Assembly (NCBI RefSeq): GCF_014874095.1
Contig: NZ_JADBEB010000001.1
Location: 186,001 to 250,000 of the forward strand
Direction of reading: 5' to 3'
Length of the DNA: 64,000 bases
From: Plantactinospora soyae
GTDB lineage: Bacteria > Actinomycetota > Actinomycetes > Mycobacteriales > Micromonosporaceae
The notes below the pieces were generated by a model that did no database searches, was not told the DNA's origin, and was given only the letters and a program-made list of their open reading frames with translations. Shown here piece after piece: positions 53,695-57,182 of this stretch; the first letter of the stretch is position 1; each line of letters begins with the position of its first letter. Made by a program: the position numbers and the translations under genes.

Positions 53695-54111
53695 TCAGCG
53701 CAGGTCCGCCTCGTCGTCGGCCACCGGACCGCCCAGTTCCCCGGTCCCGTACGGGTCGAGGACGCCCAGCACCCGCCGGCCCCAGCGCTCGTGTGCGGCC
53801 TGCCGGCTGACCCCCGCCGCCCGCGCGATCAGCTCCCAGGTCACCCCCCAGCGCCGTAGGCCGACGACGCTGGGCAGCGGGTCGACCCCGGCGGACAGGA
53901 TGATCCGGAAGTGCAGCAGTTGCGCCGCCACCTCACGCTGCCGACCCGCCTCGCCGTCCTGCTCCGCGAGCCACTCTGGACTTCCCGGCACGGGCCGCCC
54001 GCCGATCAGCAGGTCGGCCTGCCGACTCGCCTCGTTGACGGCGGCGTCGACGGACGCCGCGACGGCCCCGGCCACGTCGGTGGCGAGCGCGGTCTCCACG
54101 AATTGTTCCAT
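53695..54111 (-). CDS. small HTH protein of unknown function
   Basis: The 138-residue protein has a helix-turn-helix-like segment near the C-terminus (WELIARAAGVSRQAAHERWG) and helical N-terminal sequence (EQFVETALATDVAGAVAASVDAAV). I do not recognise a family. The ATG at 54111 lies 7 nt after TACCCT, so the mRNA is probably leaderless, and a 9-bp-arm inverted repeat covers its -35 to -10 region. The Clp-N gene is 81 nt downstream on the same strand; alaS is divergent. Confidence 0.75.
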   Translation of the reverse strand: MEQFVETALATDVAGAVAASVDAAVNEASRQADLLIGGRPVPGSPEWLAEQDGEAGRQREVAAQLLHFRIILSAGVDPLPSVVGLRRWGVTWELIARAAGVSRQAAHERWGRRVLGVLDPYGTGELGGPVADDEADLR

Positions 54112-54118
54112 GCTTGTC

Positions 54119-54159
54119 AGGGTAACCTTGACAAAATTCCCCGTCAAGGTTGGCTTGAC
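54119..54159 (-). promoter_or_regulatory. operator over the HTH gene promoter
   Basis: AACCTTGAC (54124-54132) and its complement GTCAAGGTT (54143-54151) are separated by 10 bp, and a third half-site GGCTTGAC lies at 54152-54159. On the minus strand CTTGAC (54143-54148) is a -35 box, 18 bp from the -10 box TACCCT (54119-54124). The dyad therefore covers the whole promoter. Confidence 0.7.
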
Positions 54160-54297
54160 AGCTCGCCGTCGTACCCAGGAAATTGCCTACCGCCGTCCGC
54201 CGGGCCGTGCGCTAAGGTCGTTCCACGGACCGGGGCCGAGCGACGCCGAGCAGCGGAGCGGGCCGCCAGGTTGGTCGAAACGATCGGGAGCGGGCGA

Positions 54298-54363
54298 ATG
54301 GCCACGGTAGGGCGGCGAGCTAGCCACGCCGAGCTGGGGAACGAGGACAGCGTCCTCGCCTGA
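54298..54363 (+). CDS. 21-codon leader ORF upstream of alaS
   Basis: ATG at 54298 with GGGAG upstream opens MATVGRRASHAELGNEDSVLA, stop at 54361-54363. Four of its 21 residues are Ala. Its 3' half lies inside the nested stem-loop at 54326-54385. A possible -10 box, TAAGGT, lies at about 54213-54218. Its role as an attenuator leader peptide is inference from position and structure. Confidence 0.45.
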   Translation: MATVGRRASHAELGNEDSVLA

Positions 54364-54385
54364 CCCCCTCGGCCCAGCTCGGCGT
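54326..54385 (+). promoter_or_regulatory. nested stem-loop in the alaS leader
   Basis: ACGCCGAGCTGGG (54326-54338) pairs perfectly with CCCAGCTCGGCGT (54373-54385), 13 bp; inside it CGAGGAC-AGC-GTCCTCG (54342-54358) forms a second 7-bp hairpin. The leader ORF runs through the left arm and inner hairpin and stops between the inner hairpin and the right arm. A ribosome stalled early in the ORF would change the fold. No T-box motif is visible. The rest of the 404-nt gap up to 54515 holds no gene. Confidence 0.65.
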
Positions 54386-54515
54386 ACGCCATTAGGCCCG
54401 CCCATCCGTCTACCGCGCGAACGAGCTCTGGACGGACACCGCGAGGACCCGGCACGACCATCGGCCGTGCGGGTTCCGGTGCGCGTTCGCCACCCCGCCC
54501 GACAAGGCCAGTGCC

Positions 54516-57182
54516 ATGCGATCTTCCGACATCCGCCGGACCTTCCTCGACTACTTCACCGACCGCGGCCACACCCGTACGCCGTCCAGCCCGCTGATCC
54601 CCGATGACCCGGGGCTGCTGCTCACCATCGCCGGGATGAACCAGTTCAAGCCGTACTACCTCGGCGAGCGCCAGCCGCCGCAACCGCGCCTGACCAGCGT
54701 GCAGAAGTGTGTCCGTACCTCCGACATCGACAACGTCGGGCGGACCACCCGGCACGCCACCTTCTTCGAGATGCTCGGCAACTTCTCGTTCGACGACTAC
54801 TTCAAGGCCGACACCATCGCGTACGCCTGGGAGCTGTTCACCCGGCACTATCAGCTCGACCCCGACCGGATCTGGATCACGGTCTTCTCCGACGACGACG
54901 AGTCGGTACGACTGTGGCGCCGGATCGGCGTCCCGGAGTCCCGGATCCAGCGACTCGGGATGCGGGACAACTACTGGTCGATGGGCGTACCCGGCCCGTC
55001 CGGCCCGTCCTCCGAACTCTGCTACGACCGTGGTCCGAAGTTCGGCCCCGAGGGCGGTCCGGCGGTGAACGACGAGCGGTACGTCGAACTCTGGAACCTG
55101 GTGTTCATGCAGCACCTGCGGGGCGAGGGCGACGGCAAGGAGGACTTCCCGATCCTCGGTGACCTGCCCACCCGCAACATCGACACCGGGCTCGGCCTCG
55201 ACCGGCTCGCCGCGATCCTCCAGGGCGTCGACACGATCTGCGAGACCGACCTGCTCGCGCCGACCCTCGACGTCGCCCAGGAACTCGCCGGACGGCAGTT
55301 CCCCGGTCACGACGGCAGCCCGGAGTCGGTGTCCTTCCAGGTCGTCACCGAGCACGCCCGGTCCGCCGCGTTCCTGCTCGCCGACGGCGTACTACCCGGC
55401 AACGAGGGGCGTGGCTACGTGCTGCGCCGGCTGCTGCGCCGGGTGGTCCGGCACGCGCGCACCCTCGGCATCGAGACGCCGGTGCTGGCGGCGGTGACCG
55501 GCAGCGTGGTGGAGAACCTCGGCGGAACCTGGCCCGAACTCGTCGCCGGACGCGCGCTCATCGAGGCGGTCACCACGCACGAGGAGGAGAGCTTCGGCGG
55601 CACCCTGCGCCAGGGCGGGCGCCTGCTCGACGCGGCGATCGGTCGGGTCCGCGGCACCGACACGACCCGGCTGTCCGGCGAGACGGCGTTCGAACTGCAC
55701 GACACGTACGGCTTCCCGATCGACCTCACCATCGACGCGGCGCGGGCGGCCGGGCTCACCGTCGACGAGGAGCGGTACGCGGTGCTGCTGGACGAACAGC
55801 GCCGCCGGGCCAGGGGCGGTGGCCGGGGCCGGACGGCGGACCAGGAACGCCGCCTGGACACCTACCGGCGGTTGCTGACCCGGCACGGGCGTACCGACTT
55901 CGCCGGCTACACCGGGACCCTCGTCGAGACCGAACTCCTCGCCGTACTGCGGGACGGCCGGCCGGTGGAGACGGCAGGCGTCGGCGACCGGGTTGAACTG
56001 GTACTCGGCCGCAGCCCGTTCTACGCCGAGTCCGGTGGACAGGTGGGCGACCACGGCAGCGTCCGCACCGCCGACGGAACGATCGTCGAGATCACCGACA
56101 CCCGGTACGGGGTCGACGGTCTCCACGTACACGAGGGTCTGGTGCGGGACGGTGAGGTCCGGCCCGGCCTGCGGGTCGAGGCCGGGGTCGACGGCGAGCG
56201 GCGGGCGGCCGTCGCCCGGTCCCACTCGGCCACCCACGTGCTGCACGCCATGCTGCGGCGGGTGCTGGGCGGCCACGCCCGGCAGCAGGGCTCCCTCGTC
56301 GCCCCCGGACGGCTGCGGTTCGACTTCGCCCACTTCTCCCCGGTCGACGAATCCGCACTCGACGTCATCGGCACCCTGGTCAACGACTACCTGCTGGACG
56401 ATCCCGAGGTACGGGTCTGGCAGGCGAGCCGGGCCGAGGCCGAGGCGGCGGGCGCGACCGCCTTCTTCGGCGACCGGTACGGCGAGCAGGTCCGGATCGT
56501 CGACATCGGCGACGCCTCCCGGGAGCTGTGCGGTGGCACCCACGTCGGGCACGGTACCCAGGCCGGACCGGTCCGGATCGTCGGCGAATCCTCCGTCGGC
56601 GCCGGACTCCGCCGGATCGAGGCGCTCACCGGCCGGGACGCGCTCCGGTACGCCGACACCGAACGGCGGCTGCTCGCCGAGGTCGGTCGGCTCGTCGGTG
56701 CCCGACCGGACAACCTGCTCGTCACCCTCGCCCGGCGACTCGACGCGCTGGCCGAGGCGGAGGAGGCGCTACGCCGACACCGCCGGCACGAACTCGACAC
56801 GATCGCCGGATCGCTGCTCGGACTCCGTCGGGCGGTCGGCACCGGCTGGCTGGTCAGCGCGCTCCGCGACGACCTGACCGGGCCCGAACTGCGGTCGGTC
56901 GTGCTCGACGTCCTGGCGCGCTGCCCGGTCGACGAGCCGACGGTCGTCGTACTCGCGGTCGCGGGCGAGGGGAAGGCGCAGCTCGTCGCCGGGCTCAGTT
57001 CCGCGTCGCTGAACCGGGGCGGCCGGGCCCGGGACGTACTCGTCGAGGCGGGTCGGGTGATCGGCGGCGGGGCCGGCGGCACCGGCAACCTGGCCAGTGC
57101 GGGCGGCCGGCACACCCACCGCATCCACGAGGCCCTGACCCAGGCCGAATCCGCGGCCGGAGAACTCCTGACCCGGCCCTGA
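54516..57182 (+). CDS. alaS: alanine--tRNA ligase (likely second copy)
   Basis: AlaRS charges tRNA-Ala and edits mischarged Ser and Gly. The 888-residue protein is complete: class II core (TSVQKCVRTSDIDNVG, ATFFEMLGNFSFDDYFK, RNIDTGLGLDRLAAILQ), editing domain with zinc ligands HSATH and CGGTH, and the C-terminal C-Ala domain with a Gly-rich end (GGGAGGTGNLASAGG). The usual neighbours of the housekeeping actinobacterial alaS (ruvX, mltG, aroE) are absent, so this is probably a duplicate, perhaps for stress or antibiotic resistance. The leader has a structured short ORF. ATG 54516 has only a weak AAGG upstream. Confidence 0.93.
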   Translation: MRSSDIRRTFLDYFTDRGHTRTPSSPLIPDDPGLLLTIAGMNQFKPYYLGERQPPQPRLTSVQKCVRTSDIDNVGRTTRHATFFEMLGNFSFDDYFKADTIAYAWELFTRHYQLDPDRIWITVFSDDDESVRLWRRIGVPESRIQRLGMRDNYWSMGVPGPSGPSSELCYDRGPKFGPEGGPAVNDERYVELWNLVFMQHLRGEGDGKEDFPILGDLPTRNIDTGLGLDRLAAILQGVDTICETDLLAPTLDVAQELAGRQFPGHDGSPESVSFQVVTEHARSAAFLLADGVLPGNEGRGYVLRRLLRRVVRHARTLGIETPVLAAVTGSVVENLGGTWPELVAGRALIEAVTTHEEESFGGTLRQGGRLLDAAIGRVRGTDTTRLSGETAFELHDTYGFPIDLTIDAARAAGLTVDEERYAVLLDEQRRRARGGGRGRTADQERRLDTYRRLLTRHGRTDFAGYTGTLVETELLAVLRDGRPVETAGVGDRVELVLGRSPFYAESGGQVGDHGSVRTADGTIVEITDTRYGVDGLHVHEGLVRDGEVRPGLRVEAGVDGERRAAVARSHSATHVLHAMLRRVLGGHARQQGSLVAPGRLRFDFAHFSPVDESALDVIGTLVNDYLLDDPEVRVWQASRAEAEAAGATAFFGDRYGEQVRIVDIGDASRELCGGTHVGHGTQAGPVRIVGESSVGAGLRRIEALTGRDALRYADTERRLLAEVGRLVGARPDNLLVTLARRLDALAEAEEALRRHRRHELDTIAGSLLGLRRAVGTGWLVSALRDDLTGPELRSVVLDVLARCPVDEPTVVVLAVAGEGKAQLVAGLSSASLNRGGRARDVLVEAGRVIGGGAGGTGNLASAGGRHTHRIHEALTQAESAAGELLTRP

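Follow-up and report, generated by a model that had tools for sequence, protein, structure and literature searches.

A putative ribosome-operated leader upstream of an auxiliary alanyl-tRNA synthetase gene in Plantactinospora soyae and other soil actinobacteria

Translational attenuators of resistance genes, of the ermC and cat type, have a translated leader and a locked ribosome site on the target gene, which is freed when a ribosome halts at a defined codon. Vecchione and Sello, in a work whose title is cited in PMC4787780, reportedly described how ribosome-mediated transcriptional attenuation governs an auxiliary tryptophanyl-tRNA synthetase that resists antibiotics. For alanine, an RNA-seq study of Streptomyces lividans TK24 found AlaL, of a type not described before, upstream of an alaS (SLIV_01315); it has a short Ala-containing leader open reading frame (ORF) and was called an attenuator from RNA-seq, in a report with no comparative work and no output mechanism (2021; PMC8079986). 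A 2005 survey of actinobacterial leaders makes no mention of alaS; it reports leader structures of trp, cys, and leu genes as well as T-boxes for ileS (PMC1262725). Ascamycin is a natural example of an alanyl-tRNA synthetase (AlaRS) inhibitor, and AcmD, the extra AlaRS of its producer, was reported to be more ascamycin resistant than the canonical enzyme (PMC12945691). AcmD is a precedent for a resistant second AlaRS; its gene lies inside the ascamycin biosynthetic cluster, and the accessible portions of the two papers mention no leader (PMC12945691, PMC4257720).

Here, we report a leader upstream of a second alaS (alaS2) of Plantactinospora soyae, its relatives in other soil actinobacteria, and two kinase genes that stand behind the same leader. 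The window, by which we mean the whole stretch of DNA that was analyzed, was 64,000 nucleotides long (G000:C1:186001-250000) and belongs to a 9.7-Mb genome, in which the leader had one match, itself. The features of the locus were as follows.

54213 to 54218, + strand: TAAGGT, candidate −10 box for the leader promoter, by sequence
54286 to 54290, + strand: GGGAG, leader ORF ribosome site, by sequence, 7 nt before the ATG
54298 to 54363, + strand: leader ORF encoding MATVGRRASHAELGNEDSVLA, 21 codons (ATG at 54298, TGA at 54361-54363)
54299 to 54315, + strand: candidate anti-Shine-Dalgarno stretch (TGGCC, 54299-54303; GGGCGG, 54310-54315), predicted to form a duplex with the alaS2 ribosome-site region
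54315 to 54322, + strand: invariant core GCGAGCTA, shared by the alaS2 leaders that protein search recovered
54316 to 54321, + strand: proposed control codons inside the core (codon 7, CGA; codon 8, GCT)
54326 to 54338, + strand: 5′ arm of the outer stem, ACGCCGAGCTGGG, within the leader ORF
54342 to 54358, + strand: inner hairpin (CGAGGAC, 54342-54348; GTCCTCG, 54352-54358; 7 bp, loop AGC)
54353 to 54360, + strand: element X, TCCTCGCC, directly before the stop codon
54373 to 54385, + strand: 3′ arm of the outer stem, CCCAGCTCGGCGT, 13 perfect bp with the 5′ arm
54417 to 54490, + strand: second domain, long leaders only, closed by GCGAACG/CGTTCGC and bearing element Y
54441 to 54447, + strand: element Y (GCGAGGA), complementary to X
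54495 to 54510, + strand: alaS2 ribosome-site region, CCGCCCGACAAGGCCA, possibly covered by the leader (Shine-Dalgarno [SD] AAGG, 54504-54507)
54516 to 57182, + strand: alaS2, second alanyl-tRNA synthetase, 888 amino acids, assigned by AlaRS domains, tree, and identity

A sequence-only reading of this DNA had described a 21-codon ORF with a good ribosome site and 4 Ala codons, the second half of which sits in a nested hairpin with a perfect 13-bp outer stem and a 7-bp inner stem, and both descriptions were borne out when the window was re-read directly; the Ala codons are codons 2, 8, 11, and 21. Its placement of the stop codon past the inner hairpin and ahead of the outer right arm is correct for the window and does not hold as a conserved layout across leaders. 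It had also seen no T-box, and neither a T-box nor any other Rfam family was matched in the leader region, whether at the gathering cutoff or with E values as high as 1. Ahead of the leaders of relatives, a hexamer like TAAGGT again follows G(T)GCGC (L005, TAAGAT; L014 and L258, TAGACT). A TAGACT-like −10 box ends about 6 to 7 nt before the leader ATG in L013, L014, L015, and L258, which suggests that in their genus the mRNA 5′ end coincides with the start of the leader ORF. GTCAAGG/CTTGAC repeats (window, 54115-54165), possibly an operator or −35 boxes, lie between a divergent ORF (53695-54147, − strand) and the leader promoter, with similar ones in L005 and L007 to L009.

The sequence-only reading had called the downstream gene alaS; it does encode an AlaRS, and it is an auxiliary copy, 46% identical to the other full-length alaS product of the genome (G000:C1:5130848), which was taken as the housekeeping copy because its kind occurs in nearly all relatives. 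The window protein carries AlaRS domains and aligns with solved AlaRS along the catalytic domain. In a tree of 93 AlaRS sequences, 55 second copies formed one clade (AlaRS2; support, 0.998), and the motif 3 Glu that is invariant in the canonical set was Asp in 52 of the 55 and Gly in the other 3. To judge from sequence, AlaRS2 is a divergent, full-length, and catalytically plausible second copy, as expected of an auxiliary synthetase. The enzyme is probably drug tolerant. AcmD was considered as a member of this clade and is not counted in it; its nearest relative listed in 2014 was a Bacteriovorax protein (44%), which speaks against membership.

The leader was found upstream of every alaS2 ortholog whose upstream DNA was examined. 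All 12 genomes with a clear AlaRS2 (best match of at least 55%) in a sample of 151 relatives have it, as do 21 of 21 AlaRS2 genes in Streptomycetaceae (those at least 69% identical to S. hyaluromycini AlaRS2); the leader pattern occurred in 22 Streptomycetaceae genomes, 21 of them the AlaRS2 genomes, and was absent from the other genomes of that family that carry alaS1 alone. Matches were obtained in 20 of 241 genomes of the window's own family (19 of the 20 are leaders) and in 68 of 347 genomes of the order of G349, mostly in genus g210, which we term Actinomadura-like because AlaRS2 is present in a relative, Actinomadura latina (L034). When 395 genomes of the class were searched with a model of 13 leaders, matches came solely from alaS2-leader context. 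Among 94 loci read, alaS starts 92 to 194 nt downstream of the leader in 85, a contig edge falls just inside an apparent alaS in one (L174), six lack a complete leader and appear to be chance matches, and two (L159 and L214) precede kinase genes. Pattern matches L140, L148, L153, L155, L156, L160, and L252, in which the full leader is missing, were set aside as probable chance. Two Streptomyces plasmids carry alaS2 with its leader (L278, pSGZL of strain 769; L279, unnamed2 of NBC_01766). By comparison of genomes, the leader is not a chance feature and is kept across many soil actinobacteria.

The sequence-only reading had proposed conservation of the ORF and covariation of the stems as checks. 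The first came out in its favor: the upstream start codon, mostly 6 to 8 codons ahead of CGA, and the reading frame through CGA-GCU are retained in the AlaRS2 leaders read, as a ribosome-mediated translational attenuator with its set control codon would require. Codons 7 and 8 are CGA-GCU (Arg-Ala) in every leader, a pair that is built into the pattern-found leaders by construction and that holds also for those found by protein search. Codon 8 is the sole universal Ala codon, and both codons are rare (in six window genes, GCU makes up 1.6% of Ala codons and CGA 6.2% of its family). The peptide core is approximately V-G-(R/A)-R-A-(S/T/I)-x-(A/V)-E. The second check was answered in part: pairing in the outer stem holds for 477 of 484 cells (98.6%) over 44 distinct leaders, a count in which the search pattern set part of the 5′ arm and the 3′ arm was placed by sequence, and position 9 varies (C-G, U-G, U-A, and A-U), but in the first 13 sequences alone covariation was no greater than in shuffles. 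The alignment evidence for the outer stem thus favors pairing, with limited compensatory change. The inner hairpin is missing or replaced in short leaders. The stop codon precedes the inner hairpin in Streptomyces leaders and falls inside the loop in leaders of the window's type, and in most g210 leaders there is no stop before alaS2, so that the leader ORF runs into the gene. A further hairpin around GCGAGCUA (GGC-GAGCUA-GCC) was considered and dropped; 81% of cells are paired in the first 13 sequences, and it is formed differently in Streptomyces. The 316-nt leader region of the window folds better than shuffles (z, −2.56), and the comparison of ORF and hairpin among aligned leaders is much stronger evidence than this fold of a single sequence.

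The sequence-only reading had called an attenuator unusual for an AlaRS gene, rightly, yet with a precedent in AlaL of S. lividans (PMC8079986). AlaL was rejected as a member of the present family since both core sequence and AlaRS clade differ: its core is GCGAGCGACC, against GCGAGCTA here, and its peptide is also different. AlaL-matching sequence occurs in 15 of 169 Streptomyces genomes; there, the AlaL-type leader ACCGCGCGAGCGACCAGCTCGCCGGTTGCCGCCGC is nearly invariant, and the four such loci read (L268, L269, L272, and L274) precede a third AlaRS clade, 36 to 41% identical to AlaRS2. On these sequence grounds, the present family is distinct. It was not found described in a literature search whose coverage left out most subscription journals. 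The kind thus is already known from AlaL, and the leader family and its kinase link appear to be new. The tryptophanyl system, which we liken to this one by description only, also has an extra resistant synthetase under a leader peptide; it differs in its amino acid, and the present family also serves a kinase.

Modeling of the output was clearest for the short-leader type. The alaS2 ribosome site of g210 and g228 (ACCUCGUGAGG) complements leader codons 3 to 6 (approximately UUCACGAGGU). Across 22 leaders (g210/g228, HEV-type), the modeled mean accessibility of the SD was 0.05 in free RNA, 0.33 when a ribosome footprint places GCU in the A site, 0.22 with the footprint one codon past GCU, and 0.05 from two codons further; because of this fall, GCU is predicted to be the last of the conserved Ala codons where a stalled ribosome still opens alaS2. 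For a set of 13 representative short leaders, both kinase leaders among them, the leader's duplex with its own SD was stronger than lineage-permuted duplexes (0 of 20,000 permutations as low, not a strict probability, as some of the 13 are related). The complementarity in L159 uses unrelated sequence (CCCCUUCACGU versus ACGUGUAAGGGG). These models support translational attenuation in the g210 clade, with the SD locked by codons 3 to 6 and freed only by a halt near GCU. A locked ribosome site freed by a halt would be shared with the ermC/cat type, from which the present leader differs in its signal, probably uncharged tRNA-Ala and not a drug on the ribosome, and in that its output is modeled, and modeled outside the window. 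In Streptomyces leaders, a ribosome footprint at codon 8 gave no SD effect in the fold model.

The window carries a longer variant, in which a ribosome at codon 8 does not release the SD in the fold model; the same held for the other long leaders. Elements X (CCUCGC[C/U] right before the stop) and Y (G[C/U]GAGG in the second domain) are each present in 20 of 20 long leaders, the window among them, and in 0 of 58 short leaders, and this co-occurrence argues for long-range pairing. Folding of the long leaders does not favor X-Y pairing, which as an SD switch was rejected (little or no consistent effect on accessibility; 3 to 14 kcal/mol worse than competitors). The window leader forms a predicted duplex of −27.5 kcal/mol with its own SD region (mean with the regions of other lineages, −17.6 kcal/mol), the long leaders as a group are not unusually SD complementary (permutation, 0.23), and the pairing was not seen in the global fold of the window leader. 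Coverage of the SD by the anti-SD stretch, strong in the g210 clade, is only suggestive here. The output of the window's variant may be translational, as modeled in the g210 clade, or an additional X-Y pairing may carry it instead.

APH-type kinases include resistance enzymes. In L159 and L214, the leader is complete, with its start, its R-A core, and a complementary outer stem that has an A-U pair at position 9, and it stands before a kinase gene of the APH family (PF01636; E values, 9e-14 and 2e-12), in genomes that have one alaS each, of the housekeeping kind, and no alaS2. These loci were found by pattern; under a scoring model built earlier, from alaS2 leaders alone, they reached 42.5 and 35.7 bits, each the only significant match of its genome. 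The kinase link comprises these two cases. Immediately ahead of the leader and its kinase gene, two genera carry homologous genes of about 290 residues (L281:5270-6223 and L282:5633-6628), with a weak nucleotidyltransferase likeness, below the Pfam cutoff. The same leader before an APH kinase in genomes without alaS2 points to inducible resistance, and one sensor for both target replacement and drug modification suggests the pattern expected of it. We infer that the kinase acts on a drug.

We think it fairly probable, from the aligned leaders and the fold models together, that a cis-acting, ribosome-operated leader senses a shortage of alanyl-tRNA and turns on the auxiliary AlaRS2, whose induction would probably protect against natural products that inhibit AlaRS. 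Ribosomes would normally read through the leader ORF while the RNA fold keeps alaS2 poorly translated. When alanyl-tRNA is scarce, a ribosome would halt at codon 8, the conserved and rare Ala codon GCU that lies just ahead of the hairpin, and cover leader codons 2 to 7 and the start of the hairpin arm; the inhibitory fold would break, and the alaS2 ribosome site would be released. The comparative basis is that ORF, codon, and hairpin are kept, that the association with the AlaRS2 clade is exclusive, and that the leader also stands on a kinase gene. The halt model does not account for GCGAGCUA being invariant outside its Ala codon.

Trp-type ribosome-mediated transcription attenuation, in which the outer hairpin, or X-Y in long leaders, is a terminator prevented by the halted ribosome, is unlikely, although a hairpin arm lies within the leader ORF and long leaders have three competing elements (inner 5′ arm, X, and Y), X adjoining the stop. 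Downstream of the outer hairpin, neither the window nor most relatives show the U-run of a U-tract terminator (L013 has five U near it), but the U-tract is missing also from several S. lividans attenuators (PMC8079986). X-Y is less stable than competing folds, and the g210 ORF continues through the hairpin into alaS2, so that the stop codon cannot act alike in all leaders; because its position varies, a trp-type function for it was rejected. Of the ribosome-controlled attenuator layout claimed by the sequence-only reading, the ribosome-operated leader therefore survives, with ORF, Ala codon, and hairpin conserved together, and the trp-type stop layout does not. Homeostasis, in which the leader raises a stress-isoform AlaRS when alanine or alanyl-tRNA is low and no antibiotic is involved, also strikes us as rather unlikely: Ala codons in an alaS leader would suit it, and other synthetases in Streptomyces also have leaders (PMC8079986), but its distribution is patchy, with plasmid-borne copies, and the leader is shared with an APH kinase in genomes without alaS2.

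An erm/cat kind of nascent-peptide sensor would have a ribosome-bound antibiotic halt the ribosome around Arg-Ala, with the downstream genes answering the drug. The conserved peptide stretch R-A-(S/T/I), the ermC-like layout of g210, and the resistance enzymes among APH-type kinases agree with it; we hold it improbable, as a drug that targets the ribosome would not obviously call for an extra AlaRS and conservation at the codon level (GCU and CGA) points to decoding or RNA and not to peptide alone. That AlaRS2 itself binds the leader RNA by tRNA mimicry, with the ORF incidental, would fit the highly conserved short RNA core and is very improbable given that reading frame and start are kept and that leader-bearing kinase genes sit in genomes without AlaRS2.

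Ribosome-operated control of this alaS, in response to failing alanine charging, is thus the reading we retain. The control itself is well supported by comparison because ORF, Ala codon, and hairpin are co-conserved; alanyl-tRNA shortage as the signal, and protection from AlaRS inhibitors as the purpose, are likely. Because the gene is an auxiliary copy, the likely meaning moves from amino acid homeostasis to inducible resistance. More tentatively, and a little short of probable, the family may be a portable sensor of AlaRS inhibition joined to alternative defenses: a resistant AlaRS in most lineages and, in others, an APH kinase that modifies the drug, with a possible nucleotidyltransferase next to it. 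If so, a sensor of failing alanine charging would be common to two unrelated kinds of protective gene, more AlaRS-targeting natural products would be predicted in soil, and the leader would be a searchable sequence tag for genes that resist AlaRS inhibitors. A widespread, sometimes plasmid-borne AlaRS copy would be marked as likely resistance, and the invariance of a rare codon pair, CGA-GCU, in a leader becomes a testable question.
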